A DNA stretch of 64,000 bases from Candidatus Poribacteria bacterium (lineage in GTDB: Bacteria; Poribacteria; WGA-4E; WGA-3G). The notes below the pieces were generated by a model. That model was not told the DNA's origin, ran no database searches, and worked only from the letters and a program-made list of their open reading frames with translations. The position numbers and the translations under genes are program-made. Below, piece by piece: positions 39,062 to 62,945 of the stretch; the stretch's first letter is position 1; each line of letters opens with the position of its first letter. The stretch is taken from assembly GCA_022828145.1 (NCBI GenBank), contig JAJEJA010000043.1, positions 62,001 through 126,000 on the forward strand, written 5' to 3'.

Positions 39062-39147
39062 GGTCGAGTGGTGGAATCGGTAGACACAATGGACTTAAAA
39101 TCCATCGCCCATCAAAAGGCGTGAGGGTTCAAGTCCCTCCTCGACCA
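39062..39147 (+). tRNA. tRNA-Leu(UAA)
   Basis: Acceptor GGTCGAG pairs with CTCGACC and is followed by discriminator A. The anticodon loop CTTAAAA gives anticodon UAA. The long variable arm (CGCCCATCAAAAGGCG) is typical of type II leucine tRNAs. T-arm GAGGG-TTCAAGT-CCCTC. CCA is not encoded. Total 86 nt. Confidence 0.96.
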
Positions 39148-39168
39148 TGTTCTTCTTATATATCTTAT

Positions 39169-39242
<74 letters not shown>

Positions 39243-44735: not shown

Positions 44736-45593
44736 TTATGACCAGACATATATTTCGTTATCGTCGGGTGAATATCCGATGAATACTGCTAATACTATCC
44801 TTGCTCGCGTGCCTTTGACAGGGGGCACCTCGTGGATACACCGTGTATTGAAAAAGTAAAGGTCCCCTTGTTGCAAGTTGACTCGGTAGTGTTCTATTTT
44901 GTTTTTGCTGGCATACTTGTCAAAGGTCTCTTCTGCAATATAGGGTTGAATATTTTCTGACCAGAGACATTTATGCAGTATTGCTTGTGTTGCTTCTCCA
45001 GTTTCATCTGCATTTTGAATGCATAGTACACCTGCGAACTGATGTTCGAATCGATAGACAGCGTAATCTGTGCGTTGTTCGCGATATTTCACACTATCTA
45101 TGTGGGGTTTATAGCTATGCGTTTCGTAATGGACACGAAATATTGCTGGTCCGTATAGAGAACCATCAGGTTCGCGAGCAACCTGGACATCCTTACCAGG
45201 GGAAAGTGCGGATAAAGATTGATAGATCAGGTCTATAGGATTGTCAAAACCATCGAACAGAAATTGGAAAAGATGGTGGGTCGTCTCAGCGTGTGCTAAA
45301 AAGCGTGTTTTGTTGTCACCGCGATTGCCAAGACTTGTTCCGATGTCAATCCGCGTGCGTTTGTCGGCAGAATTCGTGTCTGCTTCGTCTCTCATCAACC
45401 CCATATTTGTAAATCTATTGATAAGACCTTGACACTGTTCGGGTGAATATACGTTCCGCAATATGATTGCGGGTATTTCTGCCTGTGATAAGGAATAAAT
45501 TGGGTTCTGATAGTTTTTGAGAACGGTTTTTAGATTAGGTTCTGCGGGCAGCCAATCTGTTTGAGCTAAACCGTGTATGCCAAATTTTCTCAT
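44736..45593 (-). CDS. 2-oxoglutarate/Fe(II)-dependent oxygenase
   Basis: 285 aa. Jelly-roll oxygenase with H164 and D166 (KPHIDS), distal H254 (RCIHEVPPV) and Arg 263/265 (GTRARIVLAVF) for 2-oxoglutarate. It has a ~130-residue N-terminal part, LILRNVYSPEQC-like at its start. Its ATG overlaps the aspartate kinase stop (ATGA), so the two are coupled in translation. It might hydroxylate an amino acid or a peptide; that is inference. Confidence 0.82.
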   Translation of the reverse strand: MRKFGIHGLAQTDWLPAEPNLKTVLKNYQNPIYSLSQAEIPAIILRNVYSPEQCQGLINRFTNMGLMRDEADTNSADKRTRIDIGTSLGNRGDNKTRFLAHAETTHHLFQFLFDGFDNPIDLIYQSLSALSPGKDVQVAREPDGSLYGPAIFRVHYETHSYKPHIDSVKYREQRTDYAVYRFEHQFAGVLCIQNADETGEATQAILHKCLWSENIQPYIAEETFDKYASKNKIEHYRVNLQQGDLYFFNTRCIHEVPPVKGTRARIVLAVFIGYSPDDNEIYVWS

Positions 45594-47198: not shown

Positions 47199-50100
47199 TT
47201 AGAAGAAGGATCTACCGAGTGAATTGCCGGTGCCGAATGCATTATACGGAACACCTGCTGGTAGGGTGTGAAGTCCCCATGTTTCAGTTGTTGCATCGTA
47301 ACCGATACCCGCTGAGACTGCAGGCTCGCCTATTAAGTTGACCTGGAATGTGAAATCTTGCCTGACATTGTCAAACGGGGGGTCCCGTTTAATGCCGACA
47401 CGACTCCAAGATATGCGTAAATTCCAATCGTGTAAATTTCGGTTTATACTGATGCGCTGTGAATAAAACTGACGTTCTATCGGGTAATAGATGAGACTGA
47501 AATCGAACTCCAGATCTTTGCTGAATCGGTATCGTCCGTTGGCAGTCATTGAACGAGAAGCACGAATTGAGGTATGTCGTTTACTAAAAGAATTACCTAA
47601 GCTCACGTTCCAACTTTTACGTGTATATCTGATATTCGTCCTTATCCCGACCATTTTAAATTGTTCCCCATCATCGGGATGTGGATTGGGGTCATGGGTA
47701 AGTCGAACTGTCATATTCAGATTACGACTGGGGAGTGGGACGATGGTAAAATCACTTTCTATAGGTTCGTATTTGCGTCTATAGAGTGCTTCAAATTCTG
47801 TGAAATCTGCAGTGAGTCGTGTATCAAAATGGAATATGCGATGTGCCGATTGACTACGTCTGGTTTTTATTTCGATGTTTGTGTTAAAGTTGTAGGTTAG
47901 CCTTTTGCGCTCAAAGAAATAGGTGCTTGGACCAAATGGATAAAGATTTTCGTTTGCATCAATGGGTGGCTGGTAATCAAAAGTCAATGAAGATTGCAGT
48001 TCATGCCGTAATTTTCTGACACTGGGAATAAATCTGGGACTGTATATTCGGAACAGTGTATTCGTTGCTTGGGTTCTGATGCTATAAACACCGCGTATGA
48101 TGTTTCTGTTTTTCTCTTGGTCTTTTGCATGCCATATTACGTTAGTATTCAAGTTTGCACTTATTTTGAGTTCTCGGAGCGGTGTTATGAATAAGCTCGA
48201 TTGTTTACGTAGGTCAAATCCTACATCCATAGATTGTAGGAATATGTTCTTTTCGTCTTCCCTAAATTTGTTCCGGTATGTTTGTCTATAGAAGTTGCCG
48301 AACTCAATATCCATATCGAAGCTGGTGTCTTCCAGTGTAGGAATTGCGAAAACTGAGAGGAATGGTATATCTGTTTTTGCTTTTTCCGATATGCTCACTA
48401 AACCGTCATTGATATTCTCAAAGAGTGGTAGTCTACTGAATCGCATGCGGGAAAAGTTCAGCGTTAATTGCGGCAGTTTTTGTAGTGCGGTATTGTTCTC
48501 ATCTGAGAAGTCATGCACATGTCTGACCTCAAGTCTACCGGTAAAATCCCCGATGGTTTCTCGTGAGAAGCGTAGGTTTCCATCTTCATCAATGTCTTTA
48601 TCACTTGCTGCAGAAAATGCTGCGCCGTAAGTGATGATTCCAAATGAATTGATTGAGGATTCATTGGGTAGTTTTAATTCTTCTCTGTAATGTTCAGCGC
48701 GCCATGCAGTCCGTCCTACAAAACTAATCGGCCGTCGCCCGTCTTTCTTACTATCCCAGGGTGTGAAGAAGGATTGTCTATGTCCCCACCGCATATTCCA
48801 CCGTCTGCCGATTCGTGTAGCATCCTGCCTGCTGAAGGAGTATTCGTCTGCCCCGTATAGATAGATATCTCCGTAATAGCTGCGTTTTCGGTTAACTTTT
48901 AGGATATGATAGGACTCTTTTGTATCAATTAATCTGCTATATTCTCCTGCGTAGAGACTTTGTGCTTCAGAAGCGACCTGTCGGTGGTCTTCCCATCTTC
49001 CACGGAATCCGTGTTTTCTATAGACTTCTATTTTCTCTTCTTCCTCTTCTCCGATTTCCGTTTCATCCGTATTTTCTTCAGTTTCTGAAGGTTGATCTGA
49101 TTTATCAATTGTATCATCCTGTTGTTCAACCTGTAACGGGTTATCATCTTCTTTAGTCTCTGCGGCTATATCTTCATCATTATCAGATGAATCCGTTGTT
49201 GTTTCATCCGTAGTTTTTTCAGTTTTTTCAGAATCTTCATAAGTAATGCTTTGTTCCTCGCCGTTCAAAGTAGGCTGTATCGGTTTTTTTTCTTGTTCGT
49301 TTTCTTGAACCTTGTCTGTGTCGGTAGTCGTTTCCTTTTCACTGGGAGTTGCCAATACCTCAGCTTGGAAGGTTTCCCATTCAGCTTCAAATCCTTCTGC
49401 CAGTTGTTCAAACGTTGGTGTTTCGTCTTTTTTGATGAGTTGGAAGATATAGAGTCCTTCAGGTGAAAAAACAGGATTTCGTTCAGTAATATCTCCTGGT
49501 TTCTGTAATCTTCTGACAGAATACTGCCATCCTGAAGCCATTTCGTTTAGTGGTAGACCTTTGCCTTCATTGATTTCAGCCAGTTCTGCTTCGGGGAATT
49601 CTTCAGCGAGTTTTTCGAATGTTTCACCAGCAATTGCGCGTTTATGGATATCCGTTGCGATCTCTCTGACCTTCTGTTGTGTTTCATTGCTTGCGGTGAC
49701 TGCAATGTCGATACGGGATAGTCTTATCTCCTTTTCTCCATAGACATTGAGTATTCGTTCTACCTTTAAGATATGAAATGCGGTATCTGTTCTTAGAACA
49801 GAGCTGATTTCTCCCTCTTTGAGGGAGAATGCGGCTTTATCTAAGATTGGGTCAAGGATTGGTTTACCTTCCTGATTCGTTTCGCCTTGTGTCAGGAATC
49901 CCATATCGCCGCCTTCGTATCGTGTATCCGTGTGGTCAGATTCTCTCTGTGCGATTTCAGAGAACGTAGCGTTTTCTTCATTAAGTTGTTGGTGTATTTT
50001 ATCTGCTTCCTCTTTTGCTCTATTTGCATCTTCCTCTGTAATCTGATACTCCAGAAAAAGTTGTTTTAGCCAGTAGCGATCATAATCACCTTCAAGTTGC

Positions 50101-51110
50101 TCGTGCAGCATTTCTGCTTTTTCTTTTAGTTTCGTGCGTTGTGCGGGTGTTGCGTCGGGAGGAATTGGAATATATATTTCTCTAAACTTTGTATCATTGA
50201 ACCTATATTTCCCCTCAAAACCGAAACCTTGTCCTCTCCGTGCGCTTCTATCGTATAGGATTGCAGCATCATATCGTCTCTGTCGTAAGAAAGGATATAT
50301 GATGCTGATATTTGGACCTTGGTAACTATCTGTGCCGATTCTCACAACAATTTTTGCGACTTTATCTTTGCGTAGATCGCGTCGGATTGCGGGGAAATAG
50401 AAAAGCGGAATACCCCCGATTTTCATGACGATATTCTTTGCTATCATCTCCTGATTCATTTTGATAATGACTTCGGACACACTGAAATAGTAGTGGGGGT
50501 ATTTGAGGGAGCAGGTTGTCAGGGAGCCGCTTCGGATATACGATTTTTTATCCTCTATTTTGAAGATTTCGCTTCCCCCGAAGTACCAGGGGTCGCTAAA
50601 AGTAAATCCATTTCTTGCAATACCTTTCTTCGTATCAAGGTTGAAGACGAGTTCATCGGAGAATGTCTCCTCTTCACCGACTTTTAGGTAAACGTTGCCA
50701 GCTGCGCGCATTAGGTTCTCATTGAAATCTGCCCATACGTTATCTGCTCGTAACGTCACATTATCATATTTGATAAGTGCATCACCGTGAATGCGTACGA
50801 TATTGTCCAGAATAATTACCTCATCCCCATCACCAATGACTGTATCAGGTTCAGGTGCCATAGTCTCAGGGTCTAATACCTGTTTAGGCTTTGTTACGGA
50901 TTGCGTTTCATTCGTATCACCGTTTTCGGATGATTCTTGTGAAGGTGTTTCTGGGGTCTGTGCATATAATGACCGTATCGGTAATAACAAGCAGGAGAGA
51001 GAGACAATGAGAATAGAAAACAGATACAACAACCTGTGTATAGGCTGTTTATTCTTGGATTTAATGTTATGCCAAAGAGTTTGCAATAACGTGTTCTTAT
51101 GTTGGCTCAT
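47199..51110 (-). CDS. lptD: LptD/OstA outer-membrane protein with embedded parvulin-like segments
   Basis: 1303 aa, about 1.7 times E. coli LptD. A signal segment lies at 28-50. Residues ~85-235 form the OstA periplasmic domain (VRIHGDALIKYDNVTLRADN). GGIPLFYFPAIRR (~232-244) matches the LptD transition into the barrel. Then ~345-455 is a PpiC-type parvulin (FSEIAQRESD, GGDMGFLTQGE, AAFSLKEGEISSVLR, AFHILKVERI); ~463-562 is a weaker second copy. An acidic Glu/Asp/Thr linker spans 590-695, and ~698-742 is a third half-copy (LYAGEYSRL, SYHILKVNRK). The barrel resumes from ~745 and ends SLGRSFF. The first parvulin His is missing, so chaperone rather than isomerase activity is likelier. Predicted LPS inserter carrying its own folding helper. 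Confidence 0.82.
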   Translation of the reverse strand: MSQHKNTLLQTLWHNIKSKNKQPIHRLLYLFSILIVSLSCLLLPIRSLYAQTPETPSQESSENGDTNETQSVTKPKQVLDPETMAPEPDTVIGDGDEVIILDNIVRIHGDALIKYDNVTLRADNVWADFNENLMRAAGNVYLKVGEEETFSDELVFNLDTKKGIARNGFTFSDPWYFGGSEIFKIEDKKSYIRSGSLTTCSLKYPHYYFSVSEVIIKMNQEMIAKNIVMKIGGIPLFYFPAIRRDLRKDKVAKIVVRIGTDSYQGPNISIIYPFLRQRRYDAAILYDRSARRGQGFGFEGKYRFNDTKFREIYIPIPPDATPAQRTKLKEKAEMLHEQLEGDYDRYWLKQLFLEYQITEEDANRAKEEADKIHQQLNEENATFSEIAQRESDHTDTRYEGGDMGFLTQGETNQEGKPILDPILDKAAFSLKEGEISSVLRTDTAFHILKVERILNVYGEKEIRLSRIDIAVTASNETQQKVREIATDIHKRAIAGETFEKLAEEFPEAELAEINEGKGLPLNEMASGWQYSVRRLQKPGDITERNPVFSPEGLYIFQLIKKDETPTFEQLAEGFEAEWETFQAEVLATPSEKETTTDTDKVQENEQEKKPIQPTLNGEEQSITYEDSEKTEKTTDETTTDSSDNDEDIAAETKEDDNPLQVEQQDDTIDKSDQPSETEENTDETEIGEEEEEKIEVYRKHGFRGRWEDHRQVASEAQSLYAGEYSRLIDTKESYHILKVNRKRSYYGDIYLYGADEYSFSRQDATRIGRRWNMRWGHRQSFFTPWDSKKDGRRPISFVGRTAWRAEHYREELKLPNESSINSFGIITYGAAFSAASDKDIDEDGNLRFSRETIGDFTGRLEVRHVHDFSDENNTALQKLPQLTLNFSRMRFSRLPLFENINDGLVSISEKAKTDIPFLSVFAIPTLEDTSFDMDIEFGNFYRQTYRNKFREDEKNIFLQSMDVGFDLRKQSSLFITPLRELKISANLNTNVIWHAKDQEKNRNIIRGVYSIRTQATNTLFRIYSPRFIPSVRKLRHELQSSLTFDYQPPIDANENLYPFGPSTYFFERKRLTYNFNTNIEIKTRRSQSAHRIFHFDTRLTADFTEFEALYRRKYEPIESDFTIVPLPSRNLNMTVRLTHDPNPHPDDGEQFKMVGIRTNIRYTRKSWNVSLGNSFSKRHTSIRASRSMTANGRYRFSKDLEFDFSLIYYPIERQFYSQRISINRNLHDWNLRISWSRVGIKRDPPFDNVRQDFTFQVNLIGEPAVSAGIGYDATTETWGLHTLPAGVPYNAFGTGNSLGRSFF

Positions 51111-51164: not shown

Positions 51165-52496
51165 TTATTTTTCTGTAGTTTCGGTTGATGGTACGGCATC
51201 TGGTTTGATTTTTATATAGGCATTTTCCAGCAGTGAATCTGTGTATGCTGTATATTCTTTTTCAAAAAGTTGTTGGCGTAAGATTCCGATTATCTGCTTT
51301 TTCTCTTGTGTTGTCAGTTCTGGTGTTTTGCGGTCTTCAACTTTGTAGATATGAAGTCCATTATCTAATGCCAATGTTTCACTGAATTTACCAATTTCAA
51401 GTGGTTCGACGATCTTCTGGATGATAGGATTTAATTCTGTAAGTGTATGAGTACCCATGTTTCCTTCATCTGTTTTGGTTTTAATATCGTCTGAATGCAA
51501 TTTCGCCAGTTTGGCAAAACTTTCACCTGCTTCCAGTTTTTTTAGTATATCCTGCATCTTATCTTTTGCTTTCTGGATAACTTCTTGACTGAAGGAGAAT
51601 GGCACTGTTAAATGTCTGAAAGTTATTTTCTCATCCGTTCGTGTTTCTACCATGAAAACATGATATCCGTCTTCTGCTTCAATAGGTTCGCTCATCTCAC
51701 CTGCTTTCAGTTTAGAAAGAACTGTAAGGAACACATTCGGATATGACAAGATTTCTGCGGGTGTTGTTTCAATTACGAAACCGACTTGTGTATTTAGGTT
51801 ATGTTTAGTGGCGATATTTCTTGCGATTGCTTCAAATTGTGTTTTATCAGTTTTTATATTAGTAAGTGCTTGCTTCACTTCGTCATAAGCAGTTTTCTTT
51901 TCTGCTTCGGATGGTTTATATGCGATGAATATTTTTCGTAAATGAACTTTATCTGCTTTAGTTGGTAATTGGTCTCGGTTTTCTTCAAAAAACTTTTGGA
52001 CGTCGCTGTCCCGTACTTGTAGTCGTGGTAAGATTCTCCCCATGACGAGTTTTTCAGTCATCAAGTTTCGTTGTAGTTGTTCTCGAAACGCTGCTAATGT
52101 TAATCCATTTCGGTTAAGGAATTTCTTAAATTCTTCATCTGATGCTATCTGAAATTGGGTTTTGTATTTTTGGATATGTTCTTCAATTTCTACGTTGGTT
52201 ACTTCGACCTTTAGCGTTAAGGCTGCTTCTAAAACTAGCATTTCTCGGATAAGTCTATCAAGCAATTCACTCCGTTCTTTTTCTGCTTCTTTTAGTGCCT
52301 CACTTTCAGTGTATCTGTGCATTTGTTGTAGTTCAAAAGCCCGTTGTTTAACGACTAAATCAAGCCGTCGTTTGGTAATGACATCGTCATTCACGTAAGC
52401 GATTATTTTGTCAAATATTCTTGCGTCACTTGTGGGTAGATTGATGCATAGTATGAGTATGATAAGCAGTGTAGAGGTTGTTGTTTTAGGCTTCAT
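51165..52496 (-). CDS. surA: SurA-like periplasmic chaperone with two parvulin domains
   Basis: 443 aa from ATG 52496, with GGAGG eight bases upstream; a GTG three codons earlier is less likely. Signal peptide to about TSDAR. SurA N-domain ~30-165 (IFDKIIAYVNDDVITKRRLD). Parvulin 1 ~180-290 (VHLRKIFIAYKPSEA to EDGYHVFMVE); parvulin 2 ~293-400 (FRHLTVPFSFSQEV, EGNMGTHTLTELNP, NGLHIYKVEDR). Escorts outer-membrane proteins through the periplasm. Lies 54 bases upstream of lptD, a known SurA client in proteobacteria. Confidence 0.92.
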   Translation of the reverse strand: MKPKTTTSTLLIILILCINLPTSDARIFDKIIAYVNDDVITKRRLDLVVKQRAFELQQMHRYTESEALKEAEKERSELLDRLIREMLVLEAALTLKVEVTNVEIEEHIQKYKTQFQIASDEEFKKFLNRNGLTLAAFREQLQRNLMTEKLVMGRILPRLQVRDSDVQKFFEENRDQLPTKADKVHLRKIFIAYKPSEAEKKTAYDEVKQALTNIKTDKTQFEAIARNIATKHNLNTQVGFVIETTPAEILSYPNVFLTVLSKLKAGEMSEPIEAEDGYHVFMVETRTDEKITFRHLTVPFSFSQEVIQKAKDKMQDILKKLEAGESFAKLAKLHSDDIKTKTDEGNMGTHTLTELNPIIQKIVEPLEIGKFSETLALDNGLHIYKVEDRKTPELTTQEKKQIIGILRQQLFEKEYTAYTDSLLENAYIKIKPDAVPSTETTEK

Positions 52497-52525
52497 TTTA
52501 TTCACCTCCGATAATTAGTTAAGAT

Positions 52526-52726: not shown

Positions 52727-53722
52727 TTATTTCTCTGGCGTAGTCTGTTCAGCAGGTTCTTCAGTCTGTTGTTCCTCTTGCTGTTGTACCTCTTCTGGTG
52801 CTTTATCCTCAGGGATCCGGTCTATGAATGTTTTGACTTCGGCTCGTTCTCGGAGTTTTGTTGTCCACTCTTTCATGAGCATATCCCGTCGTTCCCGTTC
52901 AGCTTTCCTGACGACACTTCTGCGGACTTCCTCTTCGCTGAAGGGTCTTTGAAAGGCATCTCTGGCTTCTTTTTTGACAAACATCATGTAGTATTTTTGC
53001 CCCTGTACCTCTACCTCTATGACAGAAGGGTGGAGTTTGTCTATTTCGGCATTGAAGGCAGCTTCCATGAACGGTTCTGTTCCTGTTGGATAGGTATTTT
53101 TGCTGATATAATCGGTATCTCCGGGTGCTTCAGGGTTAGCACCGGGTCCTACTAATTCACCTCTATCAGATAGTTCTTGTGCTGCTACGGCGATGTCTTT
53201 CCCAGCTTTCAGTTCAGCGTAGACTTCATCTGCGCGTTGTTTATCCATGAGTGTGATGCACATCAATTTGACCTGTTTAGGACGAATATAATCCTCTTTA
53301 TTTGCCTCATAGTAATTGAGGTAATCATTTTCTGACAAGAGCAGTTTGCTTTCTACCTCTTGTTCAGTGATTTTTTCTACCATTAGGTCTATAAGATAAT
53401 TCTGTACTTTCTTAAGAATCTCAGGGTCTTCATTCAGTTTTTTGTCTTTAGCGAGACACAGGATGAGTCGGCTTTCTGCCATAAGTGTCATGTATTCTTC
53501 AAGTCCGGCTTTATCTCGGTATAGTCGTTGTTTATATTCAGGGAGTTCACTGATTTCTTGCATCATCTCTTCAAGCGTGATTCTCTGTTTACCGTCCCAT
53601 TCAAATTCAGCGATAACGGTTCCATCTGCCCCGATTGCTTTGTCTCCACAACTATATAAGAATGGTAGTGTTGCCATGAGTGCGACGAGCAGTATAGTGT
53701 GAACAATACTAAATCTTTTCAT
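52727..53722 (-). CDS. PpiC-like lipoprotein (copy 1)
   Basis: 331 aa, start ATG 53722 with AGGAGG. Lipoprotein signal ending LYSC. A SurA/PrsA-type N-helical region (LEEMMQEISELPEYKQRLYRDKAGLEEYM) precedes a parvulin domain with QVKLMCITLMDKQRADEVYAELKAGKDIAVAAQ and KYYMMFVKKE. C-terminal helices are Arg/Glu-rich, then a Glu/Gln/Pro tail. The GGDLG and HIIKV-like active-site residues are poorly kept, so it is probably a chaperone. Paralog of the 53755-54732 product, 32 bases downstream of it. Confidence 0.83.
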   Translation of the reverse strand: MKRFSIVHTILLVALMATLPFLYSCGDKAIGADGTVIAEFEWDGKQRITLEEMMQEISELPEYKQRLYRDKAGLEEYMTLMAESRLILCLAKDKKLNEDPEILKKVQNYLIDLMVEKITEQEVESKLLLSENDYLNYYEANKEDYIRPKQVKLMCITLMDKQRADEVYAELKAGKDIAVAAQELSDRGELVGPGANPEAPGDTDYISKNTYPTGTEPFMEAAFNAEIDKLHPSVIEVEVQGQKYYMMFVKKEARDAFQRPFSEEEVRRSVVRKAERERRDMLMKEWTTKLRERAEVKTFIDRIPEDKAPEEVQQQEEQQTEEPAEQTTPEK

Positions 53723-53754: not shown

Positions 53755-54732
53755 TTAGTTGTCGGAGTCTTTACCATTTTTCGTATTTTCTGGTTCTGGT
53801 AGCAGGGTTTGTGGTATATTCTCAGGATAGGTTTTGAGTTTACCGGCGTTTGAGATTTCTTCTACCCATTCGAGAATACGTGCGCGTTTTTTCTCGCGTT
53901 CAACTTTTCGATTAATATCTGATTTGACCTCATCAAATTCTCTCTGGCGTTCCGGTTTCTCTTCCTCTTTGCGAAAGATCAGGTAAAATGTATCCTCTCC
54001 GACATCTGTTTCAAAAACAGTTTCGGTCATTTCATTGACCTTCATCTCAAAGACCTCATCAATAAATTCTGACCAATTAGGAGCTGCAGATTTTCCAAAG
54101 AAAAGTGTATTACCTGGGTCTTGCTGGCTTGTACCTGGACCGTTTGCCACTTTATTTGCTTCTGTGAGTTCTTTAGCCATTTCTTTTATGTCTTTCCCTG
54201 CGAGTATTTTGTCTAAAGTCTCATTTGCGAAGTCTTCATCATCAAGTGTAATACAGATTGCACGCACTTTTTCTTCTTCGATGTAATCTCCCTTATTTTC
54301 TTCATAATATGCGATCAAATCACCGTCGGTAATGGCGATCTTTTCATCAACTTCCATTTCTGTGAGTTTTTCGACCATGAGTTGATAGGAGTAATCTTCC
54401 ATTTTCTTCAGGAAGTCTTCTAATTTATCAAAACCTTCATCTGTAGCCTGTAGCAGTTTGAGTTTCTGGTCAATATAGGTTTCCAGATATTCGGCTTTAC
54501 CTTTTTTGCTGGCATAGTTTTGTTGTCTGTAGGTTGGTAATTCTGCGATTGCAGCTTCAAGTTCAGCGAGTGAAATCTGATGAAGTTCACCGTTCCACTT
54601 ATATTCGGCTATAATAATGCTTTTCTTGTCTATCTCAACTTTTGCTGCTTCATGGTTGTCGGATTGCACAAGTGACCAAGTGAGTAGACAAGTTGCTACG
54701 ACTAATGTAGCAACGATTAATAATTTTTTCAC
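53755..54732 (-). CDS. PpiC-like exported protein (copy 2)
   Basis: 325 aa from GTG 54732 with AAGGAG nine bases upstream. Signal peptide without a lipobox (LVVATCLLTWSLVQS). The organisation matches copy 1: VAEYKWNG/AEFEWDG-type strand, ELPTYRQQNYASKKGKAEYLETYID helix, then the degenerate parvulin (VRAICITLDDEDFANETL, TFYLIFRKEEEKP). Very acidic overall. A tandem duplication feeding into the surA-lptD genes. Confidence 0.8.
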   Translation of the reverse strand: MKKLLIVATLVVATCLLTWSLVQSDNHEAAKVEIDKKSIIIAEYKWNGELHQISLAELEAAIAELPTYRQQNYASKKGKAEYLETYIDQKLKLLQATDEGFDKLEDFLKKMEDYSYQLMVEKLTEMEVDEKIAITDGDLIAYYEENKGDYIEEEKVRAICITLDDEDFANETLDKILAGKDIKEMAKELTEANKVANGPGTSQQDPGNTLFFGKSAAPNWSEFIDEVFEMKVNEMTETVFETDVGEDTFYLIFRKEEEKPERQREFDEVKSDINRKVEREKKRARILEWVEEISNAGKLKTYPENIPQTLLPEPENTKNGKDSDN

Positions 54733-61676: not shown

Positions 61677-62945
61677 TTATGGTTCTTTTCGGACATCTAT
61701 TTTGCCTGTCACCGCTTCGGAGATGAGGGATTGACGGTATTCTTTTAAGAGTTGGATTTTTTGCTGTTCTGCTGCTATCAGTTCGTCAATCTGCTGTGTC
61801 TTACTATTGAGGAAGTCAGCAATTTGCGTTTGTTCAAGGGGAGGTGGAATGATAACGGTGATATTCATGAGATGCTCACTCGTTAATTTTGGCTGTGCTG
61901 CCCCTGTAATATAGTGTGTATAGTCCAACGATTCAAGCATATTTGTGAGATAATCTATATTGCCATGCTTTGGCTTGAGGACGTGAGCATGATTATTAAC
62001 CCAGTATTTACCTGTTGCCTTAAATGCCAATGGAGTTGAACGTAAGTAAAGATTCGCACCATCCTCACCAATCAAAATGAGAGGTTCATCAAAAATGTAA
62101 TTTTCAACTTTATCAATAATACCAGAGGCACCGTAGTAATCATAGACTTTTAATTTCATACTTCCACGAGTTTCAGAATTCAATGGAATTCGCAAATTAT
62201 CCAGAGACTCAAATTCATGCTTTACTTTCCTGATTATCCAATGTTTCGGTATCTCTCCAATCCACTCCACGCCCGATGGTTTCATCTCCACATTTGGGTC
62301 AAGTCCCTTTGTTACTGCTTGATTTATGAGTGCGGCGCGTTGTTCTTGTAGCAGTTCTATCTGTTGTTCTTTGATGCGGATGAGTTCGTCAATTTGTTTA
62401 GTTTTGCGGTCAAGGAAGTTGGCGATTTGGGTTTGTTCGGTATGTGAAGGAAGAAAAATCTCAAGATTGGCATATTTTTGACCGTTTACATTCCCAATAG
62501 TTGATTGAATCGTGTTCAGTGTTATCCAATCTTCAAAGCAGCTAGATTTTGTGAAATAGAATATAAAACGTGATTTGATAGAACACCCAAAATTGAATCG
62601 AACTAAGTATCCACCATAAGTATGTTTTTCATCTGATTGATGAAGATAGGTTCTTCCTAAAGTTCCACTTCTTGAAATTAGGAAATCATTCGGTTGTGTT
62701 AAGTAGATGTTCTCAACTGAATCACTCTCAAGATAAACACCTTTATCAATTAGTTCTCCATCATCAGTAATGTCTGTAGTTCTAATAAACCTTATTCCTT
62801 GCTCAACATAGAGATCCGAGTTTATGTTTAAACCGTATTGAACGGGTACTAACGATTCATACTTGAACCGAGTTTTTTTCCAATGCATTGGTATCTCTGT
62901 AATCCATTCTATACCACTCTCTTTATATTCAGGATAACGTTTCAT
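61677..62945 (-). CDS. hsdS: Orphan type I HsdS specificity subunit
   Basis: 422 aa. Start MKRYPEYKESGIEWITEIPMHW is typical of HsdS. Two target-recognition domains are separated by the conserved helix HTEQTQIANFLDRKTKQIDELIRIKEQQIELLQEQRAALI; the second repeat begins SGVEWIGEIPKHW and ends with the parallel helix (QTQIADFLNSKTQQIDELIAAEQQKIQLLKEYRQ). It would dictate the DNA target of a HsdM/HsdR complex. No hsdM or hsdR lies within the ~700 bases upstream or elsewhere in this half of the window. Unlike the 3599-4885 protein in sequence, so not a recent duplicate. Confidence 0.93.
   Translation of the reverse strand: MKRYPEYKESGIEWITEIPMHWKKTRFKYESLVPVQYGLNINSDLYVEQGIRFIRTTDITDDGELIDKGVYLESDSVENIYLTQPNDFLISRSGTLGRTYLHQSDEKHTYGGYLVRFNFGCSIKSRFIFYFTKSSCFEDWITLNTIQSTIGNVNGQKYANLEIFLPSHTEQTQIANFLDRKTKQIDELIRIKEQQIELLQEQRAALINQAVTKGLDPNVEMKPSGVEWIGEIPKHWIIRKVKHEFESLDNLRIPLNSETRGSMKLKVYDYYGASGIIDKVENYIFDEPLILIGEDGANLYLRSTPLAFKATGKYWVNNHAHVLKPKHGNIDYLTNMLESLDYTHYITGAAQPKLTSEHLMNITVIIPPPLEQTQIADFLNSKTQQIDELIAAEQQKIQLLKEYRQSLISEAVTGKIDVRKEP

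Follow-up and report, generated by a model that had tools for sequence, protein, structure and literature searches.

Three nested parvulin domains within the barrel of an LptD-like protein of Candidatus Poribacteria

The window, a stretch of 64,000 nucleotides from a Candidatus Poribacteria bacterium (assembly of 5.06 Mb in 123 contigs), encodes at positions 47199–51110 of the minus strand a protein of 1303 residues that resembles LptD, the lipopolysaccharide (LPS) translocon of the outer membrane. Its open reading frame is uninterrupted, and the same frame recurs across nearly the whole phylum, all relatives found being Candidatus Poribacteria. Set into its barrel is an insert that, in our revised anatomy, forms a single nested unit made up of three complete parvulins: an outer domain that is split, and two inner domains in tandem that resemble those of the chaperone SurA. 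An earlier note on this DNA had seen the same region as one clear parvulin, a weaker second copy, an acidic linker and a third half-copy, and had called the layout undescribed. In line with that remark, we found no LptD with a parvulin insert or a similar fusion in open-access full texts. Evidence for the architecture is far firmer than for the function it serves.

The two inner parvulins are the plainest part of the insert. Searched with the whole frame, Pfam Rotamase (PF00639) returns 104.5 bits (E=5.9e-30) over two stretches. As single domains, parvulin B (residues 343–457; 49740–50084) scores 5.5e-20 and parvulin C (residues 458–565; 49416–49739) 1.8e-6, both exceeding the gathering score. 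The first bears out the PpiC-type parvulin placed earlier at about residues 345–455; the second, placed at about 463–562, is indeed present and is a complete domain, not merely a weak copy. B and C take the positions of the first and second peptidyl-prolyl isomerase domains (PPIase-1 and PPIase-2) of SurA, with which the tandem aligns end to end at 22–26% identity, and AlphaFold2 models both. The best Foldseek matches of the insert are a PPIase structure (8hm4, 1.7e-10), E. coli SurA (1m5y) and PpiD (8zht). Like SurA, the insert thus holds a tandem of two parvulins; unlike SurA, it holds them within a third parvulin within an outer-membrane barrel protein, and the catalytic histidine pair is missing. 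The folds of 8hm4 and 8zht match as well, but neither protein is described as inserted into an outer-membrane barrel. Pfam detects no SurA core or N-terminal domain in the LptD frame, whereas the SurA-like gene upstream of it has one.

On either side of the tandem lie the parts of the outer domain. The parvulin pieces follow one another in the order N, N-R, N-R, R, where N denotes strand 1 and helix 1 and R the rest of the fold. Residues 306–342 (DTKFREIYIPIPPDATPAQRTKLKEKAEMLHEQLEGD; 50085–50195) form an N piece with no R after it, and residues 566–589 (TFEQLAEGF..., 49344–49415) together with residues 693–742 (ending SYHILKVNRK, 48885–49034) form an R piece with no N before it. Their pairing was examined with a hidden Markov model (HMM) built solely from the SurA-like frames of these loci (119 domains). 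Joined, the outer pieces (residues 303–342 plus the C-terminal pieces) reach 36.8 bits, whereas R by itself scores 21.6. They align contiguously, with model positions 2–33 supplied by the first piece and the remainder by the second. In 46 of 47 homologs the joined domain beats all 30 controls, 20 of them shuffled and 10 carrying foreign N pieces. Pfam Rotamase behaves likewise, giving 6.1e-7 (30.8 bits, profile 2–96) for the joined sequence against 0.0042 for R alone; the corresponding values are 7.3e-20 against 1.3e-13 for L042, and 1.8e-16 against 2.2e-12 for G061. In an AlphaFold2 model of residues 296–760 (36 sequences; predicted local distance difference test score, pLDDT, 71 overall), the strand at residues 307–315 and the helix at 322–340 reach about 79–89 and most of residues 697–742 lie at 60–87. 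We therefore consider it likely that an outer parvulin is split around B and C, and residues 307–315 may pair in space with residues 733–742. A stand-alone half parvulin at the SYHILKV end is rejected, since the joined HMM and Pfam scores favour a split domain: the half-copy read earlier exists (residues ~693–742), but it is no stray, its N-terminal half being residues 306–342.

We identify the host protein as LptD with high confidence because profiles of its two parts, with the insert excluded, each point there. Upstream of the insert, a profile of residues 95–322 has a single significant match in the PDB, N. gonorrhoeae LptD (7omm, E=2.1e-4), followed by LptA proteins at noise level; hhalign against E. 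coli LptD gives 88.8% with a co-linear alignment, and OstA_2 is weakly matched in 16 of 19 relatives (best E 7.7e-4). This part comprises an N-terminal export signal region, read from the sequence as a hydrophobic stretch ending in SLYAQT (residues 1–50; 50961–51110), the LptA/OstA-like domain (residues 95–232; 50415–50828) and the junction motif GIPLFYFPAI that precedes the barrel (residues 233–242; 50385–50414). Co-linear landmarks are SLTTCSLK, facing SFTSCLPG in E. coli, and GIPLFYFP, facing VPIFYSPY. Downstream, residues 742–1303 match LptD_2 (PF19838) in 6 of 19 relatives (best 1.1e-5); the window protein itself reaches 6.9e-5 and 22.1 bits, slightly below the 22.5 cut-off, and its chain ends ...SFF. 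The OstA domain, the transition motif and the C-terminal barrel ending in phenylalanine that the earlier note had recognized by eye are thereby all borne out.

Other searches were silent. The whole chain has no Pfam LptD match at E≤0.1, so that of the two profile searches proposed earlier the one for Rotamase succeeded outright and the one for LptD only through the host halves; the barrel half retrieves nothing from the PDB but ribosomal-protein noise. The classical family PF04453 has no match anywhere in the window’s genome, an absence that is not diagnostic, as the only control genomes that PF04453 detects are two Proteobacteria out of 14. The genome encodes LpxC (3.5e-88), LptF and LptG as neighbours of each other and six Omp85 matches, and therefore has an LPS pathway for LptD to serve. 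It contains no second LptD, the sole other match to the whole protein being SurA. With the LptD of E. coli and N. gonorrhoeae (7omm) and with LptD_2, the protein shares the LptA-like domain, the junction motif, the barrel, a proline aligned with that of strand 2 and the position of E. coli Cys173, with which Cys200 aligns. It differs from E. coli LptD in its cysteines: by reading, the mature chain has Cys200 only, and no partner cysteine for interdomain disulfides was seen. Two such disulfides are not known to be universal among LptD proteins.

The same alignment places the insert. In E. coli LptD, Pro231 and Pro246 mark strands 1 and 2 (PMC12644819), a residue numbering that we confirmed. Pro273 of the window protein aligns with Pro246 and is invariant in the 19 relatives, while the E. 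coli strand 1 position differs in that no proline is seen there. Past Pro273, each protein passes through an ...RRG... turn and reaches the end of strand 4 after another 13 residues; the short turn QAG follows there in E. coli, the insert in the window protein. On its far side, YGDIYLYGADEY corresponds to E. coli AGLMELDYLP. From this co-linearity, residues 246–305 (50196–50375; E. coli 206–284) would form barrel strands 1–4, and the rest of the barrel (residues 743–1303; 47202–48884) would run from strand 5 to the C-terminal phenylalanine, with strand borders that are approximate. The insert would accordingly occupy the turn between strands 4 and 5. Because strand 1 leaves the periplasm, this turn should be periplasmic. 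The LptD of E. coli and N. gonorrhoeae differs in lacking the roughly 437 residues with three parvulins in this turn, and the insert explains most of the extra length of the protein, as had been surmised.

It is virtually certain that this insert is both real and conserved. The protein is present in 59 of the 60 relatives searched and in 19 of 20 genera, mostly as a single frame of 1,100–1,400 residues, and two outgroup families also carry it. A search with the insert region found matches in 83 of 85 Poribacteria genomes, including all 56 that are 90% or more complete and 5% or less contaminated. Two of the 83 (G011 and G065) match, or probably match, through the SurA gene only, and the insert lies in the LptD frame, at the same place, in at least 81 of the 85, all 56 good-quality genomes among them; the exceptions are mostly fragmented genomes. 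An assembly or frame artefact that fused lptD with a ppiC gene, the refutation envisaged earlier, has next to no probability and is rejected: the identical single frame occurs in independent assemblies of many genera, in some within one contig.

Upon comparing the domains across the 47 homologs, we noticed that no copy of B, C or the outer parvulin retains both catalytic histidines. The strand 1 position is glutamine or arginine in nearly all B copies, mostly arginine in C and mostly glutamate in the outer domain, and the strand 4 histidine is commonly retained only in B (38 of 47). An active prolyl isomerase is rejected on these grounds. The parvulin pieces are nonetheless held under purifying selection: in one close pair, and over small segments, the ratio of nonsynonymous to synonymous substitution rates (dN/dS) is 0.04–0.12 for them, 0.05 for the barrel and 0.50 for the acidic linker. 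Since the histidine pair is lost yet selection persists, the insert parvulins probably bind rather than isomerize. SurA provides a precedent for such a non-catalytic role, as only its PPIase-2 is active and PPIase-1 binds segments of outer-membrane proteins (OMPs; PMC13067283). The same figures bear on whether the insert is a functionless neutral passenger, accepted in a turn long ago. Domain insertions are common and the catalytic residues have decayed, as such a passenger would allow; the contrast in dN/dS with the adjoining linker and the retention of the insert across the whole phylum make this very unlikely.

The linker itself (residues 590–692; 49035–49343), which interrupts the outer parvulin, is 39% aspartate or glutamate and 8% lysine or arginine, and is predicted to be disordered (pLDDT below 50). 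Its rate of evolution is some tenfold that of the host, and class-level relatives have no counterpart of it. It is a later addition, and we reject it as a functional core; the linker of about 105 residues described earlier is itself borne out.

In two class-level relatives (L045 and L048), parvulin B of LptD lacks its SDD..GG loop, and copies therefore decay independently. The two outgroup families (G060 and G061) carry a fourth parvulin at a site corresponding to residues ~912–924 (48339–48377), which is empty in the window protein. Here model positions 19–98 precede positions 1–35, that is, the domain is circularly permuted; put back in order, it scores 8.0e-18 in Pfam against 7.6e-13 for its first part. 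It lies at residues ~750–880 of the frame at L069:1–3795 (minus strand) and at residues ~247–378 of the frame at L071:1–2334. In a tree of the domains, the outer copies form one clade and the C copies another; the B copies also group together, apart from L065_B of the outgroup, which is placed with SurA first domains. This tree is consistent with a SurA-type origin of the tandem but too short for proof.

How might this architecture act? We tentatively propose, at a little short of an even chance, that the insert is a built-in, non-catalytic SurA-like module that helps its own barrel to assemble and is afterwards kept at the periplasmic mouth. Both outgoing strands would carry the outer parvulin, whose strand 1 would extend strand 4 of the barrel and whose final strand would run on into strand 5, and the B-C tandem would sit in its helix 1/helix 2 region. 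For as long as this slow barrel of 26 strands is in the periplasm and on the barrel assembly machinery (BAM), the module could hold segments of its own barrel in cis, or dock to BAM or SurA; after insertion into the membrane, it would remain at the mouth. LptD folding takes about 20 min (PMC13067283). Several observations weigh against this proposal. A complete SurA gene is adjacent, and extra chaperoning may be unnecessary. The chaperone activity of SurA resides mainly in its core domain, which the insert lacks. Of the structure predictions suggested earlier, that of the insert is judged by pLDDT, and both the outer-domain pairing and the placement under the barrel stay putative; that of the near-full chain (residues 104–1303, 19 sequences) reached pLDDT 33 and was not used.

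The strongest competitor is a module with no folding role, a lid or platform that stays permanently at the periplasmic mouth of the barrel near the lateral gate side (strands 1–4), which would bind a partner (BAM, LptE, SurA, an LptA-like bridge or peptidoglycan) or control LPS entry. The insert lies beside strands 1–4, where E. coli LptD holds LptM and binds LPS (PMC12644819), and the further parvulin at a second site in the outgroups is what one expects of a structural crown. Retention of a peptide-binding fold with loss of catalysis, and the presence of a complete SurA, fit as well. The partners named are candidates, and the SurA-like ancestry of the tandem points toward OMP handling. We regard this explanation as possible though doubtful, and favour a role in cis assembly over a gate, inferring both. 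A module serving other outer-membrane proteins, with LptD as its anchor only, would also suit a SurA-like tandem, and the three further parvulin genes of this gene row point to a heavy demand for OMP chaperones. An abundant free chaperone, however, would outdo one anchored to an essential protein of low copy number, and fixed stoichiometry with LptD across the phylum argues for a role in cis; this makes the general chaperone improbable. Replacement of LptE, the lipoprotein needed for LptD assembly in E. coli, is rejected as highly improbable. The window’s genome has no LptE match, which is probably a matter of search sensitivity, and 36 of the 85 Poribacteria genomes do have one, among them members of the same genus that carry the same LptD insert.

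In E. coli LptD is an essential protein; it is also a drug target, and few barrels assemble more slowly. SurA, LptE and BAM share in its assembly. A phylum with SurA-like domains inside LptD is a natural experiment in which chaperone and client form one chain, and the place and time of binding can therefore be mapped directly. The nesting of parvulin in parvulin in barrel, together with the permuted copy, indicates that periplasmic turns of outer-membrane barrels can take whole domains. Poribacteria LptD thus seems to have a built-in helper for folding or docking that other bacteria supply as separate proteins. In E. coli, LptM, LptE and LptY bind LptD and aid its assembly or gating (PMC12644819); they differ from the insert in being separate lipoproteins of unrelated fold. 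An extension of our proposal, which we rate as rather unlikely, is a cis-chaperoned barrel: parvulins in periplasmic turns, at the nested site and at the permuted site of the outgroups, would bind the barrel’s own unfolded strands and hand them to BAM. For this mode of OMP biogenesis we found no description in open-access full texts.

Upstream of the gene, on the same strand, lie mfd and, directly adjoining, a row of three parvulin genes, two PpiC-like and one SurA-like; downstream is an aspartate-kinase-type gene. The SurA-like gene (51165–52505, minus strand, 446 residues) has by Pfam a SurA N-terminal domain and two parvulins. Replacement of SurA by the insert is rejected, as this complete gene adjoins; with a separate SurA next door, the module would supplement SurA. 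The PpiC-like genes encode 331 residues (52727–53722, minus strand; Rotamase_2 3.9e-5, slightly below the gathering score) and 325 residues (53755–54732, minus strand; Rotamase_2 3.6e-10). In the outgroup G060, one upstream frame (L070:792–2801) encodes a 670-residue protein with two PpiC-like halves.

Elsewhere in the window, the frame at 44736–45593 (minus strand) matches the WelO5 family of carrier-independent halogenases (1.5e-28) and, more weakly, 2-oxoglutarate-Fe(II) oxygenases, and may encode a halogenase or hydroxylase. A tandem pair of tRNA genes at the Rfam gathering threshold lies at 39062–39242 (plus strand), and a type I restriction specificity subunit (Methylase_S, 7.5e-26) is encoded at 61677–62945 (minus strand).

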